Below are positions 16,701-46,756 of a stretch of DNA of 51,268 nucleotides, one piece after another. Made by a program: the position numbers and the translations under genes. The number at the start of each line of letters is the position of its first letter. Positions within the stretch are counted from its first letter, which is position 1. Under the pieces are notes generated by a model that saw only the letters and a list, made by a program, of their open reading frames with translations, was not told where the DNA came from and searched no databases. Origin of the DNA: a virus; IMG/VR virus record IMGVR_UViG_3300031753_000297, positions 1-51,268 of that record; one strand, 5' to 3'.

Positions 16701-18115
16701 GCGCGGCCGTCGCGAACGAGCTCCGGATGATGGCCATCAAGGACATCACGCCGGCGAAGGACAACCCGCGCCGCGACGTCGGCGACGTCACGGAGCTGGC
16801 GGCCTCGATCAAGTCGGCCGGGATCCTCGAGCCATTGATCGTGACCATCGAGCCCAAGGCGACGTTCCAGCCAAGGAATGGCGGCGGCCCCGTCACGATG
16901 CACGAGGCCCGTCACCTGCTGGTCATCGGCCACCGCCGACTCGCGGCGGCGAAGCTCGCCGGCCTGACCGAGGTCCCGGTCGTCGTCCGGACGCTGAGCG
17001 AGAGCGAGCGGATCGAGGCGATGCTCATCGAGAACCTGCAGCGCACCGACCTGGCGCCCCTCGAGGAAGCCCAATCATTCAAGCGCTTGCTCGACATGGG
17101 TTGCAGCCAGCACAAGCTTGCCGAGCGGATCGGCCGGTCCCAGTCCCACATCTCCAAGCGCCTCGCACTGCTGGAGCTGCCCGACGTCGCGAAGAAGGCA
17201 CTCGATTCCGGCGGAATCACGCTGCCCGATGCCTACGAGCTGACCAAGCTCGCCGCGCATCCGGAGCGGGTCAAGAAGGCGATCGCCGAGCGGCATCGGA
17301 ACGGCTACTACCGCGACATGAACCAGGTCGTCGAGCAGGAGCTCCTGCTCCAGCAGCAGGAGGACCGCGGCGCGAAGGTCCGCCGCCAACTCGAGGCCGA
17401 GGGCGTCAAGCTCGTGCCGGCTCCGCGCGACATCTGGAATCCACCGGCCGGCACGCAATTCCTCGGCAGTCCCGGCGAGTACGGGCGCGTGGGCGTCACC
17501 GTCGACGCGCACAAGAAGTTGCCGTGCCATGCCGCCTTTATCGGCTCCGATGGCAAGGCGCGGTGGATCTGTACCGATCCGAAAGTTCACGCCTCTCCCA
17601 AAGAGAAGGCGGCGCTGACCCGCGAGTTGACGGAGCGGCAACGCCAGGTCGCGGACAAGAAGCTCGAGCGCGAGGCGCAGCGTGAGCGCGCCTCGTTTCT
17701 CGAGAAGTTCGCACAGCGCCGTCCGGCCAAGACGCACGTCGCCCATGCCATCCAGGTCCTCATTCAGGCCCAGTCGGCGAACGATGCCTGCCATACGGCC
17801 AAGGTTCTCGGACTCGAGCCGGCGATCGTCAAGACGAAGTACTTCACCGGTCGCGACTATCACAAGCCGCTGCTGAAGCTCGCCACGAAGAAGGGCGGCC
17901 TCGAGAAGGTGCTGGTCGCGATGGCTCTCGCGCGCGGCGAGGAGAGTTGCAGCTACAGCTACATGGCGGGCCAGGTGGGCCTCCTCCACTACGGCTTCAT
18001 CAAGAAGGTCGGCTACGAGCCCAACAGCTGGGAGCGCCGCTCGGCCAAAAAGATCAAGTCCGATGCCGCGGACGAGCGCGAAATGGACCTCGAGGAAATC
18101 GAGGATGCCGGATGA
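16697..18115 (+). CDS. ParB/KorB-like DNA-binding protein
   Basis: A 472-residue protein. The ParB N-terminal domain spans about 11-120, with GHRRLAAAKLAG (78-89) and ENLQRTDLAPLEEA (112-125). A clear helix-turn-helix follows: SQHKLAERIGRSQSHISKRL (137-156), as in ParB and KorB. The segment from about 230 onward, including a charged coiled-coil (330-360) and a C-terminal domain, is not recognised. In phages such proteins partition the prophage plasmid or bind dispersed operators. One copy of the GATTCCG palindrome family lies in its own coding sequence at 17204, so it is the leading candidate to bind that family; this is inference. Confidence 0.8.
   Translation: MSAAVANELRMMAIKDITPAKDNPRRDVGDVTELAASIKSAGILEPLIVTIEPKATFQPRNGGGPVTMHEARHLLVIGHRRLAAAKLAGLTEVPVVVRTLSESERIEAMLIENLQRTDLAPLEEAQSFKRLLDMGCSQHKLAERIGRSQSHISKRLALLELPDVAKKALDSGGITLPDAYELTKLAAHPERVKKAIAERHRNGYYRDMNQVVEQELLLQQQEDRGAKVRRQLEAEGVKLVPAPRDIWNPPAGTQFLGSPGEYGRVGVTVDAHKKLPCHAAFIGSDGKARWICTDPKVHASPKEKAALTRELTERQRQVADKKLEREAQRERASFLEKFAQRRPAKTHVAHAIQVLIQAQSANDACHTAKVLGLEPAIVKTKYFTGRDYHKPLLKLATKKGGLEKVLVAMALARGEESCSYSYMAGQVGLLHYGFIKKVGYEPNSWERRSAKKIKSDAADEREMDLEEIEDAG
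17204..17218. repeat. GATTCCG-N-CGGAATC palindrome, copy 1
   Basis: Exact GATTCCGGCGGAATC with a single central base. It lies within the ParB/KorB-like gene. One of about nine related sites found only in the phage half. Confidence 0.6.
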
Positions 18116-18342
18116 AGAACGCCGACGAACTCCCTTGGCCTGGCAACCAATATGCCGGCGATCGCCGCTGGCGGCCCTGCGACTGGCTGCTCTTCCCTCA
18201 TTACCTCAAAGCTCCCGCCGAGCCGGATCCCAATCCCGACTTCGGTAAAGCGGTCGTCCGCGAATTCGCGTCCGCGTTCATCCTCGTGCTCGGTCTCGTC
18301 GTCGTGGCCCTCTCGACCGTCTTGCACACGTCCACGCCCTAG
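18112..18342 (+). CDS. small membrane protein
   Basis: A 76-residue protein overlapping the ParB-like stop. The N-terminal half is aromatic and soluble (WPGNQYAGDRRWRPCDWLL); the C-terminal half has one membrane helix, EFASAFILVLGLVVVALSTV. It is a tail-anchor-like layout. Function unknown. Confidence 0.5.
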   Translation: MKNADELPWPGNQYAGDRRWRPCDWLLFPHYLKAPAEPDPNPDFGKAVVREFASAFILVLGLVVVALSTVLHTSTP

Positions 18343-18356
18343 TCCTGGAGGTGATC

Positions 18357-18533
18357 ATGCTTCCGACCACGTCGACCTGGGTGATCCTCAAGCACCGCTC
18401 GCCGAACATCCGCCTCTCGATTGAGTGTGATCCGGATCGCGTGCCGCAGGTGGCCGCCGAGGGCAAGAAGATGCTGCCGAAGCTGGCCAAGGTGGCCAAT
18501 GGCAACAACCACGCCAAGGAGAAGGCCTCTTGA
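18357..18533 (+). CDS. small hypothetical protein
   Basis: A 58-residue protein beginning MLPTTSTWVILKHRSPN. The ATG at 18357 is preferred to a GTG at 18351 because a good GGAGGTG site lies at the right distance. No family recognised; basic C-terminus. Its end overlaps the next TTG start. Confidence 0.45.
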   Translation: MLPTTSTWVILKHRSPNIRLSIECDPDRVPQVAAEGKKMLPKLAKVANGNNHAKEKAS

Positions 18534-18787
18534 GCCAGGGGCTCGCGCTGGCGATCGCCGCGTGCTGGGTATGCATCGCGATCGGCATCCTGATCGGCGC
18601 ATGGTGGGCCGGTCCTGAGCGTGCCGTTATCGAGGATCTCTCGACCCTCGATTCGTTGCAAGCCAAGGGCCTCATCGAGATTCGCGGCGGCCGACCGGTC
18701 GTTACGAACGCTGGCCGGCGCGTCCACGCCAGCATGGGGCGCACCGCTCCCGAGCCCGACAGGGAGGACGCAGCCACCACCAGCTAA
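18530..18787 (+). CDS. small membrane-anchored protein
   Basis: An 85-residue protein with TTG start. Residues 5-27 (LALAIAACWVCIAIGILIGA) form an N-terminal membrane helix. The rest contains LQAKGLIEIRGGRPVVTNAG, which looks like the wing of a winged-helix domain. Function unknown. Confidence 0.45.
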   Translation: MSQGLALAIAACWVCIAIGILIGAWWAGPERAVIEDLSTLDSLQAKGLIEIRGGRPVVTNAGRRVHASMGRTAPEPDREDAATTS

Positions 18788-18831
18788 CCCGTCTCAGCAA
18801 CAGTCCCACCCGGCGAACCACAAGAAAGGGG

Positions 18832-19356
18832 TTGCCAGTCTTGCCAAACGTCTCAGAAGAATCGCGAGCACGCCGACAGGCCACGCTGGCCGATGGTCGG
18901 CGCAGCCGCGGCTATGTGCCGGTCGAGGAGGAGCTCCTCGAGATGCCTATCAGCGACGCGGCCTTCCGTCTGCTACTCAACCTGCGTCAGCACTCAAGCG
19001 AGCGCGAGACGGACGGCTTCATCGAGGAGCGGGCCCTCGGGACCGCGAGCGGTTTTATGAACCTCAAGCCGGCGCGGCTCCGGACACTGATCCAGGAGCT
19101 GCAGACGGCGGGCCTGGTCTTTACCAGCGCACGAGGGATCCGGGACGTCAATCACCTCTGCTGGTGCCGCTCCAGGGCCGAGCGCGACCGGCTGCGGTTG
19201 CAGTGGGCGCAGCAGCAGCGGCGTTCGCGTGGGACTGGCGACGGGATCGTGCCGCTCATGTCAGGCACTGGGTCAGGCAGTGTGTCAGGCCCTGACACAG
19301 ATACCAGGTCAGGCAGTGTGTCAGGCCACTCAAGGTCAAGGTCAAGAGCAACGTGA
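18832..19356 (+). CDS. replication initiator-like winged-helix protein
   Basis: A 174-residue protein from a TTG start with GAAAGGGG just upstream (TTG at 18841 is an alternative). Residues about 36-110 look like a winged-helix domain (ISDAAFRLLLNL, ELQTAGLVFTSARGIRDV), as in phage replisome organisers. Residues 140-174 are low-complexity Ser/Gly/Asp (SGTGSGSVSGPDTDTRSGSV), because the DNA there is an array of repeats. As in lambda O, an origin within the initiator gene is plausible. The next gene overlaps by four bases and may be the helicase-loader counterpart. Confidence 0.55.
   Translation: MPVLPNVSEESRARRQATLADGRRSRGYVPVEEELLEMPISDAAFRLLLNLRQHSSERETDGFIEERALGTASGFMNLKPARLRTLIQELQTAGLVFTSARGIRDVNHLCWCRSRAERDRLRLQWAQQQRRSRGTGDGIVPLMSGTGSGSVSGPDTDTRSGSVSGHSRSRSRAT
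19261..19345. repeat. iteron-like repeats, candidate replication origin
   Basis: TCAGGC occurs repeatedly. A 21-base unit containing GTCAGGCAGTGTGTCAGG is present exactly twice, at 19271-19291 and 19307-19327, and the first copy runs into TGTGTCAGG-C-CCTGACACA, a perfect palindrome at 19281-19299. GGTCAAGGTCAAG follows. The array lies inside the 3' end of the initiator-like gene, the lambda-O type location for a phage origin. Confidence 0.55.
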
Positions 19357-19811
19357 CGAACGACGAAAGGCCGTCTCACCAGACGACTCGTTCCTCGTCG
19401 TCTGTTTCGACGTCGCTGCGCGCCGAAGAGAAAAAGCGGGGGCTTACGCCGGCCGAGAAGGCGCTGATCGAGCAAGTCTGCTTCGCCTGGGCCGAGCATC
19501 AGGGCTGGCCGAAGGGTCGCTGGCCGCGCAGCCGGCGCTACGACGCGGTGCTGATCACGCTCTGGGTGCGCAAGCTGGGTGGATCGATCGACCGCTGGAA
19601 GCTCGCCATCACCCGGGTGCCCCGCGACGCTGCCTTCACCGCGCTGACGACGCCGCCTGCGCCGGGTCGGATCCCGCTGCTCGAGGAGATCCTCGTCGAC
19701 ACTGCGGGCCGTGAGGCAGCCTGGGCCAGCGAGAAGAAGCAGCACGCCGAGGACTCGAAGACGATCGGCGACGTGCTGCGCCGGATGGTCGGAGCGCCAC
19801 CCAATGCCTGA
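19353..19811 (+). CDS. hypothetical protein downstream of the initiator-like gene
   Basis: A 152-residue protein with GTG start overlapping the previous gene (GTGA). The first 25 residues are Ser-rich; the rest is helical and positively charged (RGLTPAEKALIEQVCFAW). No Walker motif, so it is not a full helicase loader. Position suggests a replication role. Confidence 0.45.
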   Translation: MTNDERPSHQTTRSSSSVSTSLRAEEKKRGLTPAEKALIEQVCFAWAEHQGWPKGRWPRSRRYDAVLITLWVRKLGGSIDRWKLAITRVPRDAAFTALTTPPAPGRIPLLEEILVDTAGREAAWASEKKQHAEDSKTIGDVLRRMVGAPPNA

Positions 19812-20094
19812 CGAGCAGCAATATGCGGCGGGCAAATTCGCGCAGGGATTCGGCCGGCGTGCAGCCTTCGGATGCTGCGCTGATTGCGGAGAGGCGCTGC
19901 TAGAGATCACTGCGCTGATATGCGATCCCTGCCGGTACAAGCCGGAAAACCGGACGCCCGAGTTTGCCGAACGTGAGGCCGGTCATCGCGAGCGGATCGC
20001 GGACCTCTCCCGGGGCGTCAGAGACAGCTCGCTGACGTGCGCAAAAGTCGACGCGATCTACCGGAAAAAGTGCAAGGAGGCCGCGGCCGCGTGA
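19804..20094 (+). CDS. zinc-ribbon small protein
   Basis: A 96-residue protein from the ATG at 19804. CCADCGEALLEITALICDPC has two C-x2-C pairs, a treble-clef or ribbon-like zinc site at about 24-43. The C-terminal part is charged and helical. It overlaps both neighbours by a few bases. Confidence 0.55.
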   Translation: MPDEQQYAAGKFAQGFGRRAAFGCCADCGEALLEITALICDPCRYKPENRTPEFAEREAGHRERIADLSRGVRDSSLTCAKVDAIYRKKCKEAAAA

Positions 20095-20318
20095 AAGAAA
20101 CCGTGCGCGTCAAGCAACCGGATCCGCCCGTTTCCAAAGAGATTTTGGCCGAGGCGATCGTCCGGATCGGGGAGGCCGCGGAGCGTCTCCAGCAGGATGG
20201 CGGTCTTAATAAGCGCGCGGTCGTCACGCTGCTGGCCGACTACACCCGGATGGGCAAGCGAGAGATCGAGACTGTCCTCGACGCCCTGCCCCGCCTGCGT
20301 AGTTGGTACTGCCGATGA
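20091..20318 (+). CDS. small helical protein
   Basis: A 75-residue protein from the GTG at 20091, which overlaps the preceding stop (GTGA). KRAVVTLLADYTRMGKREIE looks like a small helix-turn-helix, but no family is recognised. Part of the unbroken early-gene chain. Confidence 0.5.
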   Translation: MKETVRVKQPDPPVSKEILAEAIVRIGEAAERLQQDGGLNKRAVVTLLADYTRMGKREIETVLDALPRLRSWYCR

Positions 20319-20446
20319 GCGCGCACTTCATGGCCGACATGGAGGCGATCCAGCGTTGCCGGACCTGCGGGAAGGGCGTGCCGGCGAACGCCGAGGCCTG
20401 TGCCTGGTGCCAGCAGCTGGTCGACAGTAAGGACCGGTCGGCATGA
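20315..20446 (+). CDS. 43-residue zinc-knuckle protein
   Basis: CRTCGKGVPANAEACAWC has two C-x2-C pairs, a compact zinc ribbon. Start and stop both overlap the neighbours (ATGA). Function unknown. Confidence 0.5.
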   Translation: MSAHFMADMEAIQRCRTCGKGVPANAEACAWCQQLVDSKDRSA

Positions 20447-20688
20447 GCTCGCTGGCCGTCAAACCCTGTAAGGCGTGCGGAACCGAGATCTTCTGGCTGC
20501 GCCACGCGATCAGCGGCGTGCCGTTGCCGGTCGAAGTCCATCCCGATCGGACCGGGCGGGGCAACCTCGTCATCGACATTGACCGCGAGGTCTATTTCAC
20601 GGTTCCTCCCGGCGCGAAGACGTACGACAAGCCGATCCATGCGAACCATCGCAAGACCTGTCTCAACCCGTCGGTGTCGCCGGGGTGA
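20443..20688 (+). CDS. small zinc-binding protein
   Basis: An 81-residue protein. CKACGTEIFW at 9-18 and a late HANHRKTC provide a C-x2-C plus His/Cys site. This form (Cys pair, then a 'PVxVHPD' beta stretch, then H-x6-C) recurs in small phage proteins of GC-rich hosts. Role unknown. Confidence 0.55.
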   Translation: MSSLAVKPCKACGTEIFWLRHAISGVPLPVEVHPDRTGRGNLVIDIDREVYFTVPPGAKTYDKPIHANHRKTCLNPSVSPG

Positions 20689-20927
20689 CGACCGCGCTGA
20701 CGGTCGGCAATTCCGACGGAATCGTCGGGCGCTGCGATGCGAAGTGTCACACCGCCCAGGAGGTCGACTGCGACTGCGTATGCGGCGGCCGGCTGCACGG
20801 CTGCGGATCCTCCCAGCTGGCCATCGAGCGAAACACGGTTGACTGGTTCGGCTCGCTTGAGGCAGCGCAGGCCTGGGCCCAGGCGCATGGCGTTGAGAAC
20901 CCCATCATCGAGCGGCCGCTCCTGTGA
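20685..20927 (+). CDS. Cys-rich small protein (CDCVCGG type)
   Basis: An 80-residue protein with GTG start. The segment CDAKCHTAQEVDCDCVCGG followed by LHGCG has six cysteines within about 30 residues, a layout I recognise from small proteins of actinobacterial phages and plasmids. Likely zinc-binding. A copy of the dispersed palindrome lies in its 5' end (20709). Confidence 0.55.
   Translation: MTTALTVGNSDGIVGRCDAKCHTAQEVDCDCVCGGRLHGCGSSQLAIERNTVDWFGSLEAAQAWAQAHGVENPIIERPLL
20709..20723. repeat. GATTCCG-N-CGGAATC palindrome family, copy 2 (variant)
   Basis: AATTCCGACGGAATC, one mismatch in the outermost pair. It lies 24 bases into the gene at 20685. Confidence 0.5.
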
Positions 20928-21118
20928 TGCCGAAGACGCTGCTCGAGCAGGCCGACTGGCTCCTGAAAAAGCCGGTGCCCGTGGAGCTCGAGGAGATGGC
21001 TGGCCAGCTAATGGTGGCCCGCGGCATCCTCGATCGCCTCGCCGCTGAAGTTCGCCAGCATCCAGCCTCCGAGCAGTTGCCCGCCTTCGGCGGAACCGAG
21101 CCGCGGTGCGTCGCATGA
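20927..21118 (+). CDS. small helical protein
   Basis: A 63-residue helical protein (MPKTLLEQADWLLKKPVP), sharing one base with the previous stop; a GTG at 20924 would add one residue. No family recognised. Confidence 0.45.
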   Translation: MPKTLLEQADWLLKKPVPVELEEMAGQLMVARGILDRLAAEVRQHPASEQLPAFGGTEPRCVA

Positions 21119-21390
21119 ACTGCCCGACCTGTCAGCACCCGCTCGACAGCCATGGATCCCACGGGAACTGTCTATTCCCTAACTGCGAGTGCGGTCGCGG
21201 TCAGAAGCTCGAGCTGAACTTCCACGTTCATATGGCGCCGGATGGTGTGTCCACCTGGTGGGTCCAGGCGCATTGCATCGAGCTCAACGTCAACTTCGAG
21301 TTCGCCGTCAAGGCTGAGACCGAGAACGAGGCCCTGTGGAATGCGACCAAGACGCTGCGCACCCTGCGCATCAAGAGGCTCGATGGCTGA
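21115..21390 (+). CDS. small protein with N-terminal zinc site
   Basis: A 91-residue protein from the ATG at 21115. CPTCQHPLDSHGSHGNC and CECG near the N-terminus suggest a zinc site. The second half is a beta-rich domain with VHMAPDGVSTWWVQAHCIEL. It overlaps the RusA gene by eight bases. Confidence 0.5.
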   Translation: MNCPTCQHPLDSHGSHGNCLFPNCECGRGQKLELNFHVHMAPDGVSTWWVQAHCIELNVNFEFAVKAETENEALWNATKTLRTLRIKRLDG

Positions 21391-21889
21391 GGCGGCGACG
21401 TTCACCATGACGCGGGTACCGCCCAGCTGGCCGAACCGTCGGTTTCATTGGGCAAGGCTTGCCAGCCAGAAGAAGGCCTGGCGCGGAAGTGCCCAGATCC
21501 TCGCCCAGTCGGCGCGGAATGAGGCTCGCTGGCCGCTGCCCGTCGTGTGGCATCTCTTCGCCACGCCTCGGGTCACCATCCTGCTCCGCCGCGTGCGCCT
21601 CCTCGACCACGACAACGCCTACGCCTCCGTCAAGCCGATCGTCGACGGGCTCCAGGGCGCACTGATCCACAGCGACGCGCCAGACCAATGCGAGCTGCTG
21701 GTCACCCAGGAGCGCGTCAAGCATTACGAGGAGGAGGCGACGGTCGTCACCGTCACGAGGATTGCCAAGACGAACCCCGACCCGGTCGTCAAGGTCACAC
21801 GTCGGCGCCGGCGGACGTCGCAGGAGGCGGCCACGCTTGCCGAGATCCAAGCCCGTCAAGCCGAGGAGCTCGAGGAATCCGGGCGATGA
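21383..21889 (+). CDS. RusA-like Holliday junction resolvase
   Basis: A 168-residue protein from the ATG at 21383. RRVRLLDHDNAYASVKPIVD followed by GLQG matches the RusA core, in which the Asp residues of D-x-DN-x-K-x2-x-D bind metal at the junction. RusA resolves Holliday junctions in phage replication and recombination. The C-terminal tail is charged and helical. Placement among replication genes fits. Confidence 0.75.
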   Translation: MAEAATFTMTRVPPSWPNRRFHWARLASQKKAWRGSAQILAQSARNEARWPLPVVWHLFATPRVTILLRRVRLLDHDNAYASVKPIVDGLQGALIHSDAPDQCELLVTQERVKHYEEEATVVTVTRIAKTNPDPVVKVTRRRRRTSQEAATLAEIQARQAEELEESGR

Positions 21890-23046: not shown

Positions 23047-23663
23047 GCGGACGGGCGCAATGGCTCGCGTCGCGCCAGGCGATCCCGTCCTCGCCGGCGA
23101 AGAGCAACGCGCGATCCCCTGCAGCGCGGCCGGTCCGGCGATCGCCCGCCTGTCGGATCCACGGGACGTTGCTGCTCGATGTCGACGCACACGGCGGCCG
23201 CTTCCGCAAGCCGATCTGCCTGGAGTGTGTGCCGCCGCATCGGCCCAGCTGCATCCAGGGCGAGTACGTCGAGAAGCAGACGATCTTTTACGCCCTCGAA
23301 CTCGCCGAGAACCCAGACTACGACCTGGCCGACGTCGAGTTCTGGGAGCGCTTCGACCAGGTGCCCGACTGCCGCTGTCCGGAGCGCCGGCGTGCCATGG
23401 AGCTGCGCGAAGAGCCACCGATGGCCGAGCCGGCGCCGGCGTTCCAGCTGAGCATCGGGCGGGAGGCCACGGCCTACCACTGGCGCACGCTGCGACCGCG
23501 ACTGGCTCGCCTCGCCCGTCAGCAGCTGGGCAAGCGAGCGGTCCTCAGCTGGGACCTCGAGCAGCTGGCCCCGGTCATCGACCTGATTCCGGCGGAATCA
23601 CCGCGGGCCCGGGCCCGAGCCATCCTGGAGCGGCTTCGCGCGTTCGAAATGGACGGGAAGTGA
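23043..23663 (+). CDS. hypothetical protein with Cys pairs
   Basis: A 206-residue protein. The N-terminal 35 residues are Ser/Arg/Pro-rich. CRIHGTLLLDV, CLECVPPH and CRCPERR supply a scattered Cys/His set. The C-terminal third is helical and basic. A perfect GATTCCG palindrome lies near its 3' end (23585). Confidence 0.45.
   Translation: MSGRAQWLASRQAIPSSPAKSNARSPAARPVRRSPACRIHGTLLLDVDAHGGRFRKPICLECVPPHRPSCIQGEYVEKQTIFYALELAENPDYDLADVEFWERFDQVPDCRCPERRRAMELREEPPMAEPAPAFQLSIGREATAYHWRTLRPRLARLARQQLGKRAVLSWDLEQLAPVIDLIPAESPRARARAILERLRAFEMDGK
23585..23599. repeat. GATTCCG-N-CGGAATC palindrome, copy 3
   Basis: Exact GATTCCGGCGGAATC, 64 bases before the end of the gene at 23043. Confidence 0.6.
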
Positions 23664-26639: not shown

Positions 26640-27193
26640 TGCAGCTGGCCGTAGTCTGCCAAATCGCAAACATCACGACGCACCCCGACGCCGACAAGCT
26701 GGAACTGGTGACTCTTCGCCGTCCAAACCCGCACCCAGTCGCCACGGACGACACTTACCTTTACGTCACCGTGGTCACGGGGCCTCACTACCGAATTGGG
26801 CAGCTTGGCATTCACGTTGCCCCTGGCTCTCTGATGCCGGGCTATCTGGCCGAAGAGTCCTGGCTCGTAGGTCGTGGCGGCTCCTACCGCTGGTACTTCG
26901 TTCAGACCAAGACCATGCGCGGCGTGCCCAGCCCAGGAGTCTTCTTGGGTCAGTGGTATCGCAAGGATGCCGATGATCAGCGAAGCGTTGATCGGTTTGA
27001 GCTGCAGCGATCGAGCCTCTGCCAGATTCGCGGAGATATCGGCGGGCCACTCTGCTGCATCCAGACGGCTGATCACGAGGGCGACCATCAATGGGTACCG
27101 GATACCAGCCAGTGGACCAAGTGGCGTTGCTGGCGCGACCACTGGAAACTTGGCGAGGATGTCAGCGCGTATCTCGGCATCCGCGCCGCGTGA
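26639..27193 (+). CDS. OB-fold protein related to RNA-ligase/tRNA-binding N-termini
   Basis: A 184-residue protein (ATG at 26639; GTG at 26636 possible). Residues about 7-75, including ANITTHPDADKLELVTL and HYRIGQLGIHVAPGSLMPGY, resemble the OB-fold N-terminal region of phage RNA ligases of the DraRnl type and tRNA-binding domains. The ligase catalytic motif (K-x-D/N-G) is absent, so only the binding module is present. Cysteines late in the protein may bind zinc. Confidence 0.5.
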   Translation: MQLAVVCQIANITTHPDADKLELVTLRRPNPHPVATDDTYLYVTVVTGPHYRIGQLGIHVAPGSLMPGYLAEESWLVGRGGSYRWYFVQTKTMRGVPSPGVFLGQWYRKDADDQRSVDRFELQRSSLCQIRGDIGGPLCCIQTADHEGDHQWVPDTSQWTKWRCWRDHWKLGEDVSAYLGIRAA

Positions 27194-27525
27194 TCCCGGT
27201 CGAGGAGCACGCCTTCAATGCCGCCGTCAAGAGCTCGTTCGCGGAGGCCTCGGCCATCTGTGACGAGCGCGCCGGCCAGTACGGCGACAGCTGGGCCGTT
27301 GACAACATGCGCGGCGGCTACCTCGAGGCGACGCTCGCCTTGCCGCAACCCGCTCGACTGCGACTCGAGTTCATTCGCCTGGCGCGCTGTGCCACGATGA
27401 TCGACCTCAAAGACCAGCGACCGATTGGCAAGCAGGACACCCTGCTCGACAAGCTCAACTACGAGGCCGCCTACGCCCAGTGGCGGGCCGAGTACGAGCT
27501 CGCCCTCCGTCCCGCTGATCACTGA
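27190..27525 (+). CDS. DUF6378-like phage protein
   Basis: A 111-residue protein from the GTG at 27190, overlapping the previous stop (GTGA). DERAGQYGDSWAVDN, then LARCATMIDLKDQR and LDKLNYEAAYAQ, resemble the phage DUF6378 layout (YGD..., lKl.R..., D...D.agY), thought to be related to MazG-like pyrophosphohydrolases. Weak match; the metal-binding acidic set is only partly present. Confidence 0.4.
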   Translation: MIPVEEHAFNAAVKSSFAEASAICDERAGQYGDSWAVDNMRGGYLEATLALPQPARLRLEFIRLARCATMIDLKDQRPIGKQDTLLDKLNYEAAYAQWRAEYELALRPADH

Positions 27526-27538
27526 TTCCGACGTAATC
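27524..27538. repeat. GATTCCG-N-CGGAATC palindrome family, copy 4 (variant)
   Basis: GATTCCGACGTAATC, one mismatch. It begins at the stop codon of the preceding gene and lies at the start of a 200-base non-coding gap. Confidence 0.5.
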
Positions 27539-34084: not shown

Positions 34085-35713
34085 GTGCGGCGCTGGAAGC
34101 CGCGCAACGTCAAGGAGCGCGCCGCCGCCGATCGGGCAGTTACATTCATCAGCCGTTACCTTCGGCACACAAAGGGTGTCTGGGCGGGCGTGCCATTCGA
34201 TCTTCTTCCCTGGGAAGAGCAGGAGGTCGTTCGGCCGATCTTCGGCGGGCTCAGGCCCGACGGTGCCCGGCGCATCCGCATGGCCTGGGTCGAGGTAGCC
34301 AAGAAGTCTGGCAAGTCGGAAATTGCCGCGGCGATCGCTGCAACGTTGCTCTTCGCAGACGACGAGCGGATGGGCGAGATCTACGGAGCGGCGCGCGACC
34401 GCGACCAGGCCTCGATCGTCTTCAACGTGCTCGCCGAGATGGTGAAGAAATCACCAGCGCTCGCCGCCCGCGCGCAGATCATCCGGTCGACGAAGCGAAT
34501 CCTGGTCACCAAGGGCGCCTCGGCCGGGAGCTTCTATCAGGCCCTTGCGGCCGATAGCGATAGCGCCGATGGCGTTAATCCCTCCGGCATCATCTTCGAC
34601 GAGGTCCACCGGCAGCCTAATCGCCGGCTATGGGACGTCCTCAACGACAGCACCGCAGCGCGCCGGCAACCTCTGGTCTTCGCCATCACCACGGCCGGCT
34701 ACGACCGCGAGAGCCTGGCCTGGCAGGAGCATGAGTACGCGCGCAAGGTGCTCGAGGGGAACCTCGACGATCCGACGTTCTGGCCGGTCATTTATGCGGC
34801 CGCGCCCGACGATGACTTCCGGGATCCGAAGGCCTGGAAGAAGGCGAGTCCGAGTCTCGGTATCACCGTGCCGCTCGAGTTCTACGAGCAGCACGCCAAG
34901 CGGGCCGAGCAGGAGCCGGCCTACGAGAACACATTCCGTCGGTTCTTCCTGAATCAGTGGGTGGCCCAGGAAGAACGCTGGATGCCAATGGAGGCCTGGG
35001 ATAAGTCGGCCGGCATCTTGGGCGCGAAGGAGCTCGAAGCCCAGCTGGCGAACAACGGCTGCTTCGCCGCCCTGGACCTGTCGCAGCAACGCGACCTCAC
35101 GGCCCTCTCGCTGATCTTTCCTCCGTACAGCGATCCGCAGAGCGGCGAGTACCGGATGCTGACGAAGTTCTGGATCCCCGCGGAGAACGTCGAGGCCAGG
35201 ATCCGCCAGGACGGTGTGCCCTACGACGTCTGGATCCGCGAGGGTTGGATCAAGACCACGCCGGGCAACGTGCTTGACTACGCGACCATCGAACGCGACG
35301 TCCGCGCCGAAGGCATGCGCTACGGGATCCAGGAGATCGCCTTCGACCCGCACTTCGCCTGGCAGATGGCGCAGCAGCTCGCTGGCGCCGGCTACGTGAT
35401 GGTGCCCTTCCGCCAGGGCTTCGAGACGATGAGCACGCCGACGGCGGACCTGCTCTCGCTGGTGCGGGAGCGGCGCCTGCTGCACGGCGGCAACCCGGTC
35501 TTGCGCTGGATGGCGGACAACGTGGTCGTCGAGCAGGACGTCGGCGGCCGCTGGCGTCCATCGAAGCGCAAATCAACGAAACGCATCGACGGTATCGTCG
35601 CCGCGATCATGGCCCTCGATCGCGCGGAGCGGCATCTCTTCGGTGATGAGCAGGAGCCCGACGAGGACCTCCTGGTCTACGACGACCCGGTGACGATCGG
35701 GCCCGACTTCTGA
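34085..35713 (+). CDS. terL: terminase large subunit
   Basis: A 542-residue protein with GTG start. ATPase: Walker A-like VAKKSGKSE (71-79) and Walker B GIIFDEVH (168-175), with the family's usual divergent P-loop. Nuclease: CFAALDLSQQRDLTAL with D331, then FDPHFAW and a C-terminal RIDGIVAAIMALDRAE supply the acidic metal site. It drives DNA translocation into the prohead and cuts the concatemer. Phage HK97/P27-type arrangement with TerS and HNH. Confidence 0.9.
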   Translation: MRRWKPRNVKERAAADRAVTFISRYLRHTKGVWAGVPFDLLPWEEQEVVRPIFGGLRPDGARRIRMAWVEVAKKSGKSEIAAAIAATLLFADDERMGEIYGAARDRDQASIVFNVLAEMVKKSPALAARAQIIRSTKRILVTKGASAGSFYQALAADSDSADGVNPSGIIFDEVHRQPNRRLWDVLNDSTAARRQPLVFAITTAGYDRESLAWQEHEYARKVLEGNLDDPTFWPVIYAAAPDDDFRDPKAWKKASPSLGITVPLEFYEQHAKRAEQEPAYENTFRRFFLNQWVAQEERWMPMEAWDKSAGILGAKELEAQLANNGCFAALDLSQQRDLTALSLIFPPYSDPQSGEYRMLTKFWIPAENVEARIRQDGVPYDVWIREGWIKTTPGNVLDYATIERDVRAEGMRYGIQEIAFDPHFAWQMAQQLAGAGYVMVPFRQGFETMSTPTADLLSLVRERRLLHGGNPVLRWMADNVVVEQDVGGRWRPSKRKSTKRIDGIVAAIMALDRAERHLFGDEQEPDEDLLVYDDPVTIGPDF

Positions 35714-35726
35714 TTCCGCCGGAATC
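35712..35726. repeat. GATTCCG-N-CGGAATC palindrome, copy 5
   Basis: Exact arms with central C: GATTCCGCCGGAATC. It overlaps the TerL stop codon and lies in the short gap before the next gene. Confidence 0.6.
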
Positions 35727-38590: not shown

Positions 38591-38603
38591 AGGAGAAGAG
38601 GCA

Positions 38604-39995: not shown

Positions 39996-40014
39996 CAGGG
40001 GGAAAGGAGTCCCA

Positions 40015-40491: not shown

Positions 40492-40498
40492 CCCTGTA

Positions 40499-40948
40499 AT
40501 GACGGATGTTGTCGAACGGTTTCTGAGGAAGATCGATTTCAATAGCAGCCCGAATGGCTGCTGGGTCTGGATGGCGTCAACAAGGCGGGATGGCTACGGC
40601 CAGTTCGGTATCGGCAAGCAACTCGGTTTCTCTCAGCCCGTCACCGTGGCTCATCGTGTTGCCTACGTAATTTTTGTTGGGCCAATTCCCGAGGGTCTAA
40701 CCCTCGATCACCTCTGCCGGAATCGGCAATGCGTGCGTCCGGCCCATCTCGAACCGGTGAGTCGATCGACGAACGTGCTGCGCGGCGTGGGCCTCGCAGC
40801 CGTGAATGCGGTCGCGACCGCATGTGCGAAAGGGCATCCGTTCAACGCCGCCAACACATACGTCCGTCCCGAGGGATGGAGAGACTGCCGCAGTTGCAAG
40901 CGGATGCGTCAGAGCAATTACCTAGAGCGCCTGAAGGAGGCCGCATGA
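40499..40948 (+). CDS. HNH_3-type (homing-like) endonuclease
   Basis: A 149-residue protein. AHRVAYVIFVGPIPEGLTLD, then HLCRNRQCVRPAHLEPVSRS, matches the HNH_3 family used by phage free-standing homing endonucleases. The H-N-H residues are all present. A C-terminal zinc-like CRSCKRM follows. It lies inside the head-gene block next to the protease, as such selfish genes often do. Confidence 0.85.
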   Translation: MTDVVERFLRKIDFNSSPNGCWVWMASTRRDGYGQFGIGKQLGFSQPVTVAHRVAYVIFVGPIPEGLTLDHLCRNRQCVRPAHLEPVSRSTNVLRGVGLAAVNAVATACAKGHPFNAANTYVRPEGWRDCRSCKRMRQSNYLERLKEAA

Positions 40949-42744
40949 AGAAAAAGACTCGCGCTGCGGCGATCGCCGTTCATCACACCGAAACCACGGA
41001 TACGGCCTGGGATGCCGGCGCGGCGGAGAAGGCGCTGGGTGACAGTCCGTCGGCGGCGGTCATCCGCGCGGAGTATGCATGGATCTCTGACAGTGCCGGC
41101 GACACGCCGACAAAATCAGATGGGAAATTCCCTCATCACGAAGCAGCTGACGGAGCTGTGGGTGATGCCAACACGAAGGGCTGCTCAGCCGGCGTGGCGG
41201 TGCTCAACGGCGGCCGCGGCGGCGCGGACATCCCTGATGGCGATCGCCAGGGCGTCTACGATCACCTGGCCGCTCACCTCAAGGACGCCGGCGTCGATGA
41301 GGTGCCGAAGCTCGAGTCGGCCACCGAGGCGGTCAGGCGTCGCCTGCAGGCCGGCATCGCCAAGCTGACCGAGGCCGGCCGCACGTTGTCAGCATCCAAC
41401 GAAGAGAAGCTCCGGACCGCGCTGAGCAATCTACAGGCTGTCCTCGACACGCTCGAGCCCGACGGCAACGGCGGCGACAGCGAGCCCGCCTCGGCTGATG
41501 AGGCGGCCAAGCGGAAGATCGCCGAGGCCTACTCTGCCTCGGCCTGGGACGCGAGCGACGGCGCCTACATCCTGGCGCAGCTGCTCTCGCTGATCAGTAG
41601 CGAGTCGGATGAGCCCGACCAGGTCGCCATGCTGACCGACGCCTTCAACTCGGTCAGCAAGTGGATCGCCGCCGAAGTGGCCGAGATCGCGACGCCCGAT
41701 GACCTCGAGGACTCGACCATGATTCCGTGGGAATCGCTGCGCAAGCAGCTCCCCGCGGGCGCGCAGCGGATCCGGGAGGGCGCCACGCGCGTCGCCGGCG
41801 ACGTCGTGCAACTGCTCGAGAAGGCGGTCGGCGACGACGGGACTGTGCCGATCAAGATCATCCAGCCCGGCTGGGGCGCGTCGGGCTACTACCCGGCGGC
41901 GGTGCTCGAGCGCGACGGCCCGAAAGTCTTCGCGGCCGGCACCAAGCAGTTCTGGGACCACGCCACGCTCACCGAGGACCTCGAACAGCCAGAGCGCTCG
42001 CTGCGTGACCTGGCCGCCGTGCTGGTCAGCGACGCCCGCTACGAGGCGGACGGACCCTCGGGGCCCGGACTCTATGCCGAGGCGAAAGTCTTCAGCGAGT
42101 TCGCGCCGGTGCTCGAGGAACTGGCGCCCTACATCGGGGTATCGATCGCCAGCCTGGCGATGGCCTCGCAGGGCGAAGCGGAAGGCAAGCGCGGCGTGAT
42201 CGTCGAGCGGCTGATCCCGGATCCGCTCAATTCCATCGACTACGTGACCACACCTGGAGCTGGCGGCCAGGTGTTGCAGCTGTTCGAAGCGGCTCGCCAG
42301 CGCCAGCAAACATCTCGTAACCAGGAGGTTGGTATGGATCCGACGATCGAAGAGTTGAAGAAGCGGCGCGAGGCGGAGAAGCTGCGGGCCGACCGGCTCG
42401 AGGAGGCGCTCATTTTGCGTGACGCCAAGGACCTCGTTCGGGTGAAGCTCGCCGCGGTCACCGCGGTGCCCGACGTCACCAAGGCTCGGCTCGCGCGCAC
42501 CCTGGTGGCCAATCCGCCCGTCAAGGACGGCAAGCTCGACGGCGAAGCGCTTGGGAAGGCGGTCGACGAGGCCGTTGCCCAGGAAGCCGAATACCTGGCG
42601 CAGGCCGGCGCCGGCCGGGTGCGTGGTTTCGGCCCGAGCAAGCCAGGCGGCGGCGATGGCGACAACAAGGAGCTCGTCGGGGCGTTCTCGCGCCTCGGTC
42701 TCAGCGAATCTGCGGCGAAGACCGCCGCGCAAGGGAGGCAGTAA
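40945..42744 (+). CDS. capsid maturation protease with fused scaffold
   Basis: A 599-residue protein overlapping the HNH stop. Residues 1-115 form a separate domain (EYAWISDS, GKFPHHEAADG, GVYDHLAAHLKDAG), then helical linkers. The protease domain lies at about 300-455, with IKIIQPGWGASGYYPAAVL, WDHATLTE and GLYAEAKVFSEFAP, and ends at a SIDYVTTPGAGG motif as in phage prohead proteases. From 463 (after Met) the rest is a helical scaffold. The His of WDH and a later Ser are candidates for the catalytic set. Context next to the decoration and capsid genes confirms it. Confidence 0.8.
   Translation: MKKKTRAAAIAVHHTETTDTAWDAGAAEKALGDSPSAAVIRAEYAWISDSAGDTPTKSDGKFPHHEAADGAVGDANTKGCSAGVAVLNGGRGGADIPDGDRQGVYDHLAAHLKDAGVDEVPKLESATEAVRRRLQAGIAKLTEAGRTLSASNEEKLRTALSNLQAVLDTLEPDGNGGDSEPASADEAAKRKIAEAYSASAWDASDGAYILAQLLSLISSESDEPDQVAMLTDAFNSVSKWIAAEVAEIATPDDLEDSTMIPWESLRKQLPAGAQRIREGATRVAGDVVQLLEKAVGDDGTVPIKIIQPGWGASGYYPAAVLERDGPKVFAAGTKQFWDHATLTEDLEQPERSLRDLAAVLVSDARYEADGPSGPGLYAEAKVFSEFAPVLEELAPYIGVSIASLAMASQGEAEGKRGVIVERLIPDPLNSIDYVTTPGAGGQVLQLFEAARQRQQTSRNQEVGMDPTIEELKKRREAEKLRADRLEEALILRDAKDLVRVKLAAVTAVPDVTKARLARTLVANPPVKDGKLDGEALGKAVDEAVAQEAEYLAQAGAGRVRGFGPSKPGGGDGDNKELVGAFSRLGLSESAAKTAAQGRQ
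41721..41735. repeat. GATTCCG-N-CGGAATC palindrome family, copy 6 (variant)
   Basis: GATTCCGTGGGAATC, one mismatch. It lies within the protease gene near the boundary of the protease domain. Confidence 0.45.
42334..42744 (+). CDS. nested in-frame scaffold protein
   Basis: Within the protease gene an ATG at 42334, in frame, is preceded by AGGAGG at 42323-42328, five bases away, a far better site than expected by chance in a coding sequence. Translation from it gives a 136-residue helical protein (MDPTIEELKKRREAEKLRAD) with a Gly-rich end, the classic size and composition of a scaffold. The arrangement equals lambda C/Nu3, in which the scaffold is made separately from an internal start. Confidence 0.6.
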   Translation: MDPTIEELKKRREAEKLRADRLEEALILRDAKDLVRVKLAAVTAVPDVTKARLARTLVANPPVKDGKLDGEALGKAVDEAVAQEAEYLAQAGAGRVRGFGPSKPGGGDGDNKELVGAFSRLGLSESAAKTAAQGRQ

Positions 42745-42747
42745 GCC

Positions 42748-43107
42748 ATGGCTGGCAACCGGACTCGTATTTTCGGGCGGCGCCTGAACCTGGCCGTCAC
42801 TGACGGCGGGGTGAACTCGGGCGATCCGTGCCTTGTTGGCCAGATCTCCGGCGTCGCGGAGACGCCCAAGGACGCCAACGGCAACTGCATCGTGTCCCGC
42901 GAGGGCGTCTACAACCTGAGCGTGAAGGGCACGAACGGCGCCGGCGTGGCGGTGGCCGTGGGTGACAAGCTCTTCTACACCGTCGCCAACACGCCAAAGA
43001 TCGACAAGACCGCCTCGGGCGTCTTCTTCGGCTACGCCCTGGGCACTGTCGGCTCGGGCGCGACGGCGACGATCCCGGTCGATCTCAGCGGCGGCAGCTT
43101 TAGCTAA
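42748..43107 (+). CDS. capsid decoration protein (DUF2190-like)
   Basis: A 119-residue beta-rich protein between scaffold and major capsid. VGQISGVAETPKDANGNCIV and GVYNLSVKGTNGAGVAVAVG with GDKLFYT match the DUF2190 capsid-cement family, which stabilises heads. Confidence 0.75.
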   Translation: MAGNRTRIFGRRLNLAVTDGGVNSGDPCLVGQISGVAETPKDANGNCIVSREGVYNLSVKGTNGAGVAVAVGDKLFYTVANTPKIDKTASGVFFGYALGTVGSGATATIPVDLSGGSFS

Positions 43108-43131
43108 AGAGGGAGGTCACAAACACCAGCC

Positions 43132-44325
43132 ATGGAATTTCTTGACGTCATCGACACCATCCAGGCCGAGGAGGCCTCGGTCCAGCGGCTGTTCGCTGGG
43201 GAGGGCGCGCGCGTGCGGAATGGCCATCGCGGGCCAGACTACGCGCGCAGGCTCACCGAGACCGCCAAGTTCGTCGCCGAGATCTACGAGGGACGCCGGC
43301 CGCTCTACCACCTCCGTGAGGCGCTGGGCACCGCCGATTTCCCGCTGCTCTTCGGCGACGTCATCGACCGGCAGCTGCTGGCTCGGTATGCGGAGACGCA
43401 GCCGACCTACACCAAGTACTGCAAGGTCGACCGCACCATCCCGGACTTCCGGACGGTGAAGCGCTTCGCGATCGATGGCTCCGAGGCGGTGTTGCCGGCC
43501 GTCGGCCAGCTCGAGGAGTACCCCGAGTCGAAGCTCTCCGACACCGTGTACAGCTACACGGTCGGGAAGTTCGGCCGGAAGGTCCCGCTGATGTGGGAGT
43601 CGATCATCAACGATGACCTCGGTGCCTTCCGCGATCTGCCGGACCGTCTCGCCCGGGCCGCGCGGCGCTCGGAAGAGAAGTTCGCGACCCAACTTTTCGT
43701 CGACGCCAACGGCCCGCATGCGTCGTTCTACACCGTGGGCAACGCGAACAAGATCAACCCCACGAACGCGGGCGGTAACTTCACCGTCGTGAACCCCGCG
43801 CTCTCGATCACCGGGCTGCAGGAAGGCTTTGCCGTTCTGGCCAACCAGAAAGACGTCGACGGCGAGCCGATCGAGATCGACGCCGTCCACCTCGTGGTTC
43901 CGCCGGCGCTCGAGGTTGTCGCGCTGAACATCCTCCACGCGACCGAGCTGTGGATCGTCGGCGATGGCGGCGGCGGCACGGCCAACCAGCAGGTCCACGT
44001 GGCCAACTGGATGCGCAACCGGTTGACCCTGTCGGTCAACTACTACATCCCGCTGGTCGCGACGACCAACGGAAACACCAGCTGGTTCCTCATCGCGGAT
44101 CCGGCCTCTGGACGTCCGGCGCTCGAGATGGGCTTCCTGCGCGGGCACGACACGCCCGAGATCTTCATGAAGGAAGCGAACTCGATCCGCGTCGGCGGCG
44201 GGTCGATCGATCCGAGCCAGGGCGACTTCGAAGCCGATGCCGTGACCTACAAGATCCGGCACGTGTTCGGCGGGGCCCGCGAGGACTTCCGCGTCACCGC
44301 GGCCAGCAACGGCGCCAACGCCTAA
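43132..44325 (+). CDS. major capsid protein
   Basis: A 397-residue protein of HK97-fold size and position, following protease, scaffold and decoration. The N-terminal region (res 1-60) is helical; the main part alternates alpha and beta with GKFGRKVPLMWESIINDDLG typical of Mu-like/HK97-fold capsids. It ends with GG-rich and hydrophobic strands. Not one diagnostic motif, but context is strong. Confidence 0.85.
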   Translation: MEFLDVIDTIQAEEASVQRLFAGEGARVRNGHRGPDYARRLTETAKFVAEIYEGRRPLYHLREALGTADFPLLFGDVIDRQLLARYAETQPTYTKYCKVDRTIPDFRTVKRFAIDGSEAVLPAVGQLEEYPESKLSDTVYSYTVGKFGRKVPLMWESIINDDLGAFRDLPDRLARAARRSEEKFATQLFVDANGPHASFYTVGNANKINPTNAGGNFTVVNPALSITGLQEGFAVLANQKDVDGEPIEIDAVHLVVPPALEVVALNILHATELWIVGDGGGGTANQQVHVANWMRNRLTLSVNYYIPLVATTNGNTSWFLIADPASGRPALEMGFLRGHDTPEIFMKEANSIRVGGGSIDPSQGDFEADAVTYKIRHVFGGAREDFRVTAASNGANA

Positions 44326-44326
44326 C

Positions 44327-44575
44327 GTGGCGAGCTCGAGGCGACTCGGCCTGCCGGAACCCATCAGCGACCTGAGCGGGGTTGCGGCACGGCTCGACAT
44401 TCTCATCGATCAGCAAGACGAGATCCTGGCGGCCCTCACCGGCCGCCAGGCCTCGCCGCCTTCGGCGCTGGGCACCATTCGGGTGCGCGAGCCAGAGATG
44501 CCGTCGGCGGCCAGCTCGGCCGCGCCATGGCCAGTAGATTCCGGAATCAAGGGGCGACGACGCCGAGGGAGGTAG
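44327..44575 (+). CDS. small head-block protein
   Basis: An 82-residue protein with GTG start directly after the capsid stop. Helical central part (VAARLDILIDQQDEILAALT) and basic tail (KGRRRRGR). A connector or capsid accessory is plausible. A palindrome lies near its end (44537). Confidence 0.5.
   Translation: MASSRRLGLPEPISDLSGVAARLDILIDQQDEILAALTGRQASPPSALGTIRVREPEMPSAASSAAPWPVDSGIKGRRRRGR
44537..44548. repeat. GATTCC-GGAATC palindrome, copy 7 (short form)
   Basis: GATTCCGGAATC, the same arms without the spacer bases, near the end of the small gene after the capsid gene. Confidence 0.45.
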
Positions 44576-44578
44576 TCC

Positions 44579-44971
44579 GTGAGCTTCACTTACGACGCCT
44601 CCACGCCGGCGGGCAAGGTCCGGCTGCTCTGCACCGATCGCGACTCGAATAACCAGGCCTTCCAGGACGACGAGATCCAGGCGTTCCTCGATCTCAATGG
44701 CCAGAGCATCATCCTGGCGGCCGCGCAGGCGCTCGACCAGCTGGCCTCAAACGAGGCCTTTATCCAGGGCAAGATCAAGCTCGAGAACCTGGAGACCGAC
44801 GGTACCGCGCTGGCGGCCGCCCTCCGGGCCCAGGCGGACAAGCTGCAGAAGCAGTACGCCGAGGGCATCGGTGATCCGACGGATCCAGGCTATGACTATG
44901 CCGAGCAGCTGCTCGACGTCTTCAGCGAGCGCCAGATCTGGATCAACCGCAGCCTGCGGCAGCAGATCTAA
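44579..44971 (+). CDS. head-tail connector (adaptor) protein
   Basis: A 130-residue protein with GTG start. The order after capsid, size and helical composition (DDEIQAFLDLNGQSIILAAA) match gp6/gp15-like adaptors that sit under the portal. Confidence 0.7.
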   Translation: MSFTYDASTPAGKVRLLCTDRDSNNQAFQDDEIQAFLDLNGQSIILAAAQALDQLASNEAFIQGKIKLENLETDGTALAAALRAQADKLQKQYAEGIGDPTDPGYDYAEQLLDVFSERQIWINRSLRQQI

Positions 44972-45360
44972 TGCCCCGCACCTCGATCGTTGACCCGCGG
45001 ATGCCGGCGAGGCTACGCCAGCGGTTCCTCAACACGCCGGTCACCATCCAGCAGTATGTCGATGTCCCGGACGGCGCCGGCGGTTCGGCGCGGACCTGGG
45101 TGACCTACAAGACGGCCAAGGCAGCCATTACCTCGAGGCCTGTCCGTAAAGAACCGCCCACTGGCGAGCGGCTGCAGCTCGAGATCATCCACTTCGTGGT
45201 CGTCGAGTACGACAGCGGAATCACGGCCAAGATGCGGGTTCTCGAAGGCGTCCGGATTCTGGAGATCCTGGGCATCGAGGACTTCGGTGAGCAGAAGCTC
45301 TTCCTGGGGCTCGATTGCCAGGAGCGGGGCCAGGTCTCGACCGCGCCCTGGGACGCATGA
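44971..45360 (+). CDS. head closure / head-tail joining protein
   Basis: A 129-residue protein. RQRFLNTPVTIQQYVDVPDG opens a beta-rich fold of the SPP1 gp16 / HK97 head-tail joining type; LRVLEGVRILEILGI-like strands follow. It shares one base with the adaptor stop. Confidence 0.75.
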   Translation: MPRTSIVDPRMPARLRQRFLNTPVTIQQYVDVPDGAGGSARTWVTYKTAKAAITSRPVRKEPPTGERLQLEIIHFVVVEYDSGITAKMRVLEGVRILEILGIEDFGEQKLFLGLDCQERGQVSTAPWDA

Positions 45361-45695
45361 GCACGCGCATCGTCGACCTCACCCCCGAGGTTCTCAAGAT
45401 GATCGAAGTCAACGCGGTACGTGGCGTCCAGAAGGCCGCCGACGTGGTGCTGCGCGAGGTCGAGTCTCGCACGCCCGTCAATACCGGCGCCGGCGAACGG
45501 AGCTATCACGTCGCCACGGATCCGGACGATCCGACCAAGGCCTATGTCACCAACACCGATGCGACGTCCTACCTCAAGTACGTCGAGCAGGGGACCAGCA
45601 AGATGGCGGCCCGGCCGCACATGGTCCCCGGCGCCGAGGCCGCGAGCAACGAGGCAACGGCCGCGCTGGCGGAAACCCTCAGGGAAACCGTCTGA
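45357..45695 (+). CDS. tail completion protein (HK97 gp10-like)
   Basis: A 112-residue protein from the ATG at 45357. VLREVESRTPVNTGAGERSY and YLKYVEQGTSKMAARPHM are the family's hallmark: a helix followed by the 'T-P-x-x-T-G' and 'G-T-x-x-x-x-a-R-P' motifs of HK97 gp10 neck proteins. Confidence 0.85.
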   Translation: MSTRIVDLTPEVLKMIEVNAVRGVQKAADVVLREVESRTPVNTGAGERSYHVATDPDDPTKAYVTNTDATSYLKYVEQGTSKMAARPHMVPGAEAASNEATAALAETLRETV

Positions 45696-46097
45696 GTGGC
45701 GGCCCCGCTCTACGCCGTCCAGCAGGCCATCTTTACGGTCTTGACCGGCGACTCCACCCTGTCGGGCAAGGTGCAGGGCGTTCTTGACAACGTCCCTGAC
45801 GAGCAGGCCTTCCCCTACATCGTGATCGGGGCTGCCGTCGCCACGCCGGATGACACCCACGACCACGAAGGCTGGCAGATTGTCTGCCCGATCGATACCT
45901 GGAGCCAGGCGCGCGGCAACAAGGAAGTGGAGTCGATCCAGGCCGACCTCGATCGTCTGCTCCACCACCAGGTCCTGCCGGTGAGCGGCGCGACCTGGAT
46001 CTATTCGCGCTGTGACTACGCGGAGCCAATCCGGGATCCCGACGGCATCACGCGCCACATGAACGCCCGCTACCGGATCTGGGTGCAGGTCCCCTGA
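45696..46097 (+). CDS. tail terminator (DUF3168 family)
   Basis: A 133-residue protein with GTG start. Size, position after gp10-like protein and AIFTVLTGDSTLSGKVQGVL / YIVIGAAVATPDDTHDHEGW fit DUF3168, lambda-gpU-like tail terminator that caps the tail tube. Confidence 0.8.
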   Translation: MAAPLYAVQQAIFTVLTGDSTLSGKVQGVLDNVPDEQAFPYIVIGAAVATPDDTHDHEGWQIVCPIDTWSQARGNKEVESIQADLDRLLHHQVLPVSGATWIYSRCDYAEPIRDPDGITRHMNARYRIWVQVP

Positions 46098-46108
46098 AGG
46101 AGGTCCTC

Positions 46109-46354
46109 GTGGACGAAGCAACCGAGGCTCCGGCCTCTCCGACTGCCTATTACGACGTCGGGACGTGGCGCGGCCTGCCGCACTACGAGTGCCGGCGGTG
46201 CCCCGTCGACGCGCTCGACCAGGTCGCGATCGAGATGCACCTGATGCGCGATCACCCCGAGCTCTTCGAGAAGCCGAAGCCCCCACCCCCGAGCGAAAAC
46301 GACGGCGAACCGCCGGCGCCGATTCCGGCGGAATCATCCGAGCAGGAGGCCTAG
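46109..46354 (+). CDS. small protein with C2H2-like motif
   Basis: An 81-residue protein with GTG start. HYECRRCPVDALDQVAIEMH, then LMRDHPELFE, gives C-x2-C-x13-H-x4-H, a zinc-finger-like site. Its last 37 residues are repeated, with changes, at the end of the next gene product, because its 3' end belongs to a duplicated 402-bp unit. Confidence 0.6.
   Translation: MDEATEAPASPTAYYDVGTWRGLPHYECRRCPVDALDQVAIEMHLMRDHPELFEKPKPPPPSENDGEPPAPIPAESSEQEA
46321..46335. repeat. GATTCCG-N-CGGAATC palindrome, copy 8
   Basis: Exact GATTCCGGCGGAATC near the 3' end of the gene at 46109. It lies inside the duplicated unit. Confidence 0.6.
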
Positions 46355-46756
46355 ATGCCCCGTACAGTCCTGACAAAGACGCTCGTGCCCGTCGAGGTCG
46401 GCATCGTCGCCGGCACGGCGGTCACATGGACCGCGGCCGACGTCGGCAACCTCAATCAGTTCCCATTGACCGGGACCGAGATCGTGATCGCCTGGAACAC
46501 TGATGGCGCCGGCGCGCACAACGTCACGATCACCTCGGTCGGCGACGCCAAGGGTCGGAAGGGCGATATCACGACCGACAGCGTCCCGACCAACGGGTTC
46601 AAGGTTTACTGCCGGCACTCGGTCGATGCCTGGCGGCAGACCGTCATGCGTGATCACCCCGAGCTCTTCGAGACGCCAAAGCCCGCGCCCCAAAACGAAA
46701 ACGACGGCGAGCCGCCAGCGCCGATTCCGGCGGAATTATCCGAGCAGGAGGCCTAG
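46355..46756 (+). CDS. chimeric virion protein made by duplication
   Basis: A 133-residue protein. Residues 1-97 match the next gene product (EVGIVAGTAVTWTAADVGN, HNVTITSVGDAKGRKGDITT). Residues 98-133 (MRDHPELFETPKPAP...) instead match the end of the protein at 46109. So this gene is a fusion of the front of one gene with the back of another, exactly at the border of the tandem duplication. It lacks the last 20 residues of the next gene's product. The front is an Ig-like beta domain seen in phage structural proteins. Confidence 0.6.
   Translation: MPRTVLTKTLVPVEVGIVAGTAVTWTAADVGNLNQFPLTGTEIVIAWNTDGAGAHNVTITSVGDAKGRKGDITTDSVPTNGFKVYCRHSVDAWRQTVMRDHPELFETPKPAPQNENDGEPPAPIPAELSEQEA
46723..46737. 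repeat. GATTCCG-N-CGGAATC palindrome family, copy 9 (variant)
   Basis: GATTCCGGCGGAATT, duplicated copy of site 8 with one change in the outermost pair. Confidence 0.5.

Follow-up and report, generated by a model that had tools for sequence, protein, structure and literature searches.

The viral record IMGVR_UViG_3300031753_000297, whose entire 51,268 nucleotides constitute the window analysed here (G000), contains a family of dispersed palindromes with the core GATTCCGNCGGAATC in its phage part, between 17.2 and 46.7 kilobases (kb). The phage's own orphan ParB, encoded at 16697, is with high probability the protein that binds them, because unrelated phages share only ParB and the motif, and because codon choice within parB keeps a copy of the site. 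To judge from sequence comparisons, the motif occurs together with a single ParB subfamily in integrating phages that are otherwise unrelated. A preliminary description of this DNA had put forward the ParB/KorB-like 16697 product as the leading candidate, and that proposal is strongly supported by co-occurrence in unrelated phages, by covariation with the recognition helix, by a tree test and by apparent codon selection inside parB.

The window contains the four perfect copies claimed in the preliminary description (17204, 23585, 35712 and 46321), together with four copies that have one mismatch (20709, 27524, 41721 and 46723). These eight matches with at most one mismatch compare with about 0.01 expected in simulations of the phage part, in agreement with the earlier claim of near-zero chance occurrence; when up to three mismatches are allowed, the count is 13, compared with 4.08 expected, and no shuffle attained it. 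The suggested motif scan of the whole window was carried out with an external weight matrix, for which 44 sites, taken from ten phages and none from the window, were used. It recovers the same eight positions at scores of at least 21, the next best being 13.8 at 46035, and finds no site in positions 1–15.5 kb (expectation at scores of at least 15, 0.05 per 36 kb), consistent with the reported absence of copies from the first 15 kb. The extended consensus is TGATTCCGNCGGAATCA, 17 base pairs (bp) long, with the outer T/A in 68% and a centre that can be any base, G or C being favoured. Five close variants had been listed originally, and the four with one mismatch stand; the fifth, 44537, was rejected as a family member, as it reads GATTCCGGAATC, an out-of-register 12-bp palindrome with no NCG centre. 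The individual sites, with scores from the external matrix, are as follows.

17204..17218, GATTCCGGCGGAATC, exact; within parB, encoding DSGGI; six further divergent parB genes have a site at this position.
20709..20723, AATTCCGACGGAATC, one mismatch; intergenic, score 21.2.
23585..23599, TGATTCCGGCGGAATCA, exact; close to the 3' end of gene 23169-23663, score 31.3.
27524..27538, TGATTCCGACGTAATCA, one mismatch; its TGA terminates gene 27190-27525, score 23.1.
35712..35726, TGATTCCGCCGGAATCA, exact; its TGA terminates the gene for the terminase large subunit (34085-35713), score 28.4.
41721..41735, TGATTCCGTGGGAATC, one mismatch; within the head maturation protease gene 40945-42744, score 23.1.
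46321..46335, GATTCCGGCGGAATCA, exact; end of gene 46109-46354, tandem copy A, score 28.6.
46723..46737, GATTCCGGCGGAATT, one mismatch; end of gene 46355-46756, tandem copy B, with duplicated flanks, score 24.3.
46035..46049, GATCCCGACGGCATC, two mismatches; candidate weak site, score 13.8.

The sites at 46321 and 46723 share long flanks and near-identical gene ends that represent one tandem duplication, and are therefore not independent of each other. Within 46109-46756, it is the 3' end of a small gene that has been tandemly duplicated, with one site per copy.

IMG/VR was scanned for the exact motif, and the matches listed were examined record by record. The motif is present, in 2–8 copies per record, in at least 13 divergent viral records (besides the window itself, G001, G002, G003, G012, G017, G018, G019, G021, G034, G045, G076 and G096). 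Every one of them has a gene for a relative of the window ParB, the sole window protein with a match in every carrier compared. Since G003/G019, G017/G018 and G034/G045 are related to each other, the carriers amount to about 10 independent lineages. Among the matches listed, records with at least three sites encode such a ParB, the exceptions being G086 and G004, the latter 100% identical to part of G034 and not counted as an independent carrier; nearly all single-site records among these matches are without this ParB, G014 and G016 having weak, more distant ParB matches. In the opposite direction, 40 records found by ParB similarity were searched whole: six contain 2–7 sites, and the 34 with none encode more distant ParBs that fall outside the carrier group. 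No near relative of the window phage was found among INPHARED records. The comparison with related phages recommended in the preliminary description gave a divided answer where alignment was feasible, in that some sites are held at the same place (within parB; G003 6135 with G019 22552) and others have turned over.

The presence of the motif also varies with the recognition helix of ParB. With residues numbered as in Caulobacter ParB (PMC7383237), the combination of Q173 and K178 is found in 12/12 carriers versus 6/34 non-carriers (P=5e-7). On a ParB tree made without the site columns, a quick tree with many open forks, the carrier label changes 5 times versus 11.5 in shuffles, with 0/500 as low. 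A search for palindromes made de novo has ATTCCG-N-CGGAAT at the top of its list for G000, G018 and G034; for G045, which encodes a more distant ParB (L169) that would be expected to prefer GATTCGNNNCGAATC, GATTCG-N3-CGAATC comes first. The other GC-rich records yielded mostly TCGACG-type words driven by codon usage, a noise because of which their cognate sites cannot be read from such a search and the motif falls below first rank in several carriers.

The copy inside parB appears to be kept by selection on the DNA itself. In seven divergent parB genes the site lies just after the helix-turn-helix (HTH) region and encodes LDSGGIT (LDSGRIT in one gene, Val for Leu in two). When the 91 columns conserved in six or more of these seven genes are ranked for improbable codon use, the codons GAT (Asp), GGA (Gly) and TCC (Ser) of the site take places 1, 2 and 3; most of the seven genes use these codons rarely, and the DNA word therefore seems to be under selection. 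Shared ancestry may inflate this anomaly, although other conserved columns of the same genes do not display it. At the matching place, the parB genes L142 and L145 (records G022 and G024) have the variant palindromes TATTCCGGGGGAATA and TATTCTGGCGGAATA, which encode YSGGI as opposed to the DSGGI of the carriers.

Four observations weigh against ParB as the reader of the palindromes, or against the clamp mechanism proposed below. Carriers G001 and G002 have no copy of the site within parB. Six non-carrier ParBs share Q173 and K178, yet their records contain no site at one mismatch or fewer; three of the six (G020, G022 and G024) show weaker, motif-related palindromes. The Box III motif has no simple-pattern match in L169 and L223. 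Finally, the 24.2-kb fragment G086 (L332, L333) bears 18 related sites at two mismatches or fewer and no detected ParB; a related ParB may lie off the fragment, or the binder may be a different one. Many of the G086 sites have the form nATTCC[A/G]CCGGAATC, mostly in one orientation.

The predicted binder is located as follows.

16697..18115, + strand, orphan ParB of 472 amino acids with ParB_N, HTH_ParB and KorB domains.

By all sequence and model comparisons this protein looks like an ordinary member of the ParB superfamily. It matches the Pfam families ParB_N (PF02195, E 1e-16), HTH_ParB (PF17762, E 3e-15) and KorB (PF08535, E 3e-8, above cutoff), has sequence-profile matches to Spo0J, ParB, Noc and KorB chains, and contains the CTP-pocket (cytidine triphosphate) boxes GHRRLAA (GxRRxAA) and ENLQR (ENxQR). 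Its AlphaFold2 model, with a mean predicted local distance difference test score (pLDDT) of 77.9, finds Noc, ParB and Spo0J as best PDB matches, followed by KorB. According to the mechanism that we envisage, a ParB dimer would read the 17-bp dyad through its HTH, bind CTP, close into a clamp and slide off; with sites every 3–10 kb, such clamps would cover the whole phage genome. We infer that the orphan ParB is a clamp which loads at distributed sites, by a KorB/Noc-like mechanism but at a distinct 17-bp sequence.

The closest parallels are provided by other proteins of this superfamily. The KorB/OB system of plasmid RK2 (PMC11790492), in which the KorB clamp, a CTPase, reaches promoters at distances of up to 1.5 kb by sliding, resembles the present one in its ParB_N-HTH-KorB architecture, in the fold (PDB 8qa8/8qa9) and in the multiple palindromic sites dispersed over a mobile element. 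However, the motif differs from OB, TTTAGCSGCTAAA, for which the window has one three-mismatch match versus 3.5 expected, and the present parB is an early gene of integrating phages whose sites are not linked to promoters. The OB core is an odd palindrome with central S, as is the site described here. The analogy to KorB-OB drawn in the preliminary description thus holds for layout and protein architecture and fails for the site, which is not OB, parS or NBS (the Noc-binding site). With ParB-parS and Noc-NBS (PMC7383237) the window ParB shares the DNA-binding domain, including the equivalents of Q162, G170 and S172 and a Noc-like Q173, whereas K178 and the residue at position 201 are different and no ParA (PF13614) was found. 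The Noc specificity residues QKKR at 173/179/184/201 align with Q, R, E and P in the window protein. As for the half-site T-G-A-TTC-C-G, its TTC core and C6 are common to NBS and its G1 to parS; unlike both, it has A at position 2, and the full site is longer by one dyad base (17 versus 16 bp), a combination that fits a ParB-type reader with altered specificity. The window contains no parS match at up to three mismatches and no match to NBS. Phage orphan ParB-CTPase proteins treated in PMC12704722 are likewise located on mobile elements and devoid of a ParA-binding motif; the parts of that source used here report no DNA target for them, whereas one is proposed in the present case. Overall, the system appears to be neither ParABS (ParA and parS not found), nor KorB/OB or Noc/NBS by its site, nor a stoperator array by its symmetry.

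The distribution of sites was analysed over 52 sites. Their spacing is more even than random (P 0.00025-0.0015, the range over sensitivity tests). The preliminary description had noted that several sites lie at gene ends; in the window, the genes upstream of 27524 and 35712 take their TGA stop codon from the site, but the sites at 17204, 23585 and 41721 lie within genes. Enrichment at gene ends, named there as a sign of function, is found over the larger set: 24 of the 52 sites are at gene boundaries versus 9.4 expected (P=3e-6) and 31 are intragenic versus 44.4 expected, figures that are approximate because the genes were called with a home-made codon-usage caller. The TGA of the motif serves as a gene stop in 7/52 sites compared to a background of 4.8% of all TGAs, a modest excess that is therefore probably incidental. 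Intergenic sites have no preference for divergent or convergent gaps or for gap length, the sites show no preference for promoters or terminators, and they occur in early and late genes alike.

The DNA covered by such clamps would probably serve either genome-wide control of transcription, in the manner of KorB, VirB or BisD, or the organisation of replicating phage DNA, and not plasmid-type partition, because ParA was not found; between the first two we would divide our expectation roughly evenly. If ParB is the binder, a mainly architectural role, in which clamps compact, mark or organise replicating DNA as Noc does and do not act on transcription, is a serious contender that falls somewhat short of an even chance and is compatible with the proposed clamp. 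The even spacing, the lack of promoter or terminator preference and the presence of sites in both early and late genes are all in its favour, but one site per 3-10 kb is equally a KorB-like layout. The position of parB in the early rightward cluster, beside a CI/Cro-like pair, points to action early in lytic growth. On balance, we lean, by a modest degree, to the view that these integrating temperate phages encode an orphan ParB clamp which, from evenly distributed sites, one of them in parB, coats the entire genome and organises or globally regulates it without ParA.

In the window, parB follows the integrase, CI-like and Cro-like HTH genes of the cluster:

13592..14764, - strand, tyrosine integrase (PF00589, E 2e-32).
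15155..15514, - strand, CI-like HTH repressor (HTH_31/HTH_3, E 1e-11 to 1e-12).
15693..15908, + strand, Cro-like HTH protein, first of the rightward early genes and upstream of parB (HTH_3, E 5e-12).

In the actinophages Kiko and Maja a related ParB-like gene is similarly placed, downstream of the annotated immunity repressor. The presence of the CI-like gene raises the alternative that the palindromes are its stoperators or operators, blocking transcription across the prophage. Dispersed sites near gene boundaries do resemble the stoperators of mycobacteriophage L5, which occupy short intergenic spaces; those, however, are asymmetric and aligned with the direction of transcription (PMC9283540), and the present sites are symmetric around a free centre, several of them within genes. 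Moreover, the repressor is not common to the carriers, of which ParB alone is matched in all, and the occurrence of the motif, one copy of which sits within parB, follows the ParB recognition helix. We regard this alternative as very improbable. The stoperator analogy in the preliminary description is accordingly weakened, retaining the dispersed sites across a temperate phage genome and losing ground to the palindromic site, the separate repressor and a ParB encoded in the early rightward cluster.

Just as doubtful is the proposal that the sites are parS-type centromeres for partition. It has a precedent in N15, whose SopB is a phage ParB-type protein that uses several separate palindromic inverted repeats, IR1-4, and which requires active partition (PMC7205306). 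But N15 is a plasmid prophage, and in the present phages a tyrosine integrase is encoded by 11/15 records, ParA (PF13614) was found in 0/15 carrier records, other ParA-type ATPase families not having been searched, and the ParA-binding motif is absent in the 13 ParB proteins checked; plasmid-type partition is therefore unlikely. Least credible of all is the view that the palindromes have nothing to do with ParB and are a word of the replication, packaging or restriction type or a codon-driven repeat: some copies do encode protein (DSGGI, stop codons), but the motif is absent from all 34 comparable phages, no module for packaging or replication is found throughout the carriers, and the codon anomalies speak against a protein-driven cause.

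Orphan ParB-CTPases are frequent on phages, with targets and purpose largely unknown (PMC12704722). One subfamily of them now gains a concrete predicted DNA target with evidence of selection at the codon level, as well as protein and site variants that match each other in a natural series (GATTCCG versus GATTCGG, for example). The function of a phage ParB thereby becomes open to direct test, and the ParB and its predicted site make up a new orthogonal pair. The coating of whole phage genomes by clamps from evenly placed sites, if it indeed occurs, would put the ParB switch to a new use.

Beyond the carriers, the cultured phages Gordonia Kiko and Arthrobacter Maja (ParB about 33-36% identical) contain no motif and no clear substitute, and the same is true of a Xylanimonas plasmid, which lacks the motif and a clear substitute palindrome. 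L223, a contig of an Actinomycetales metagenome-assembled genome, has a parB relative surrounded by three exact copies of the motif, with a second ParB_N protein upstream.

In the window, two tyrosine integrases adjoin each other (12339-13415, + strand, and 13592-14764, - strand), suggesting a junction of two elements, and the motif-free left part may belong to a different mobile element and not to the host. Its positions 1-3288 encode Replic_Relax (1-1023), a second ParB_N protein (863-2245) with no match to the ParB HTH, and a protein with a weak DUF4417 match (2242-3288). Further along the left part, a putative amidoligase (Amidoligase_2) and a DUF5131 protein are encoded at 4646-5932 and 8564-9304.

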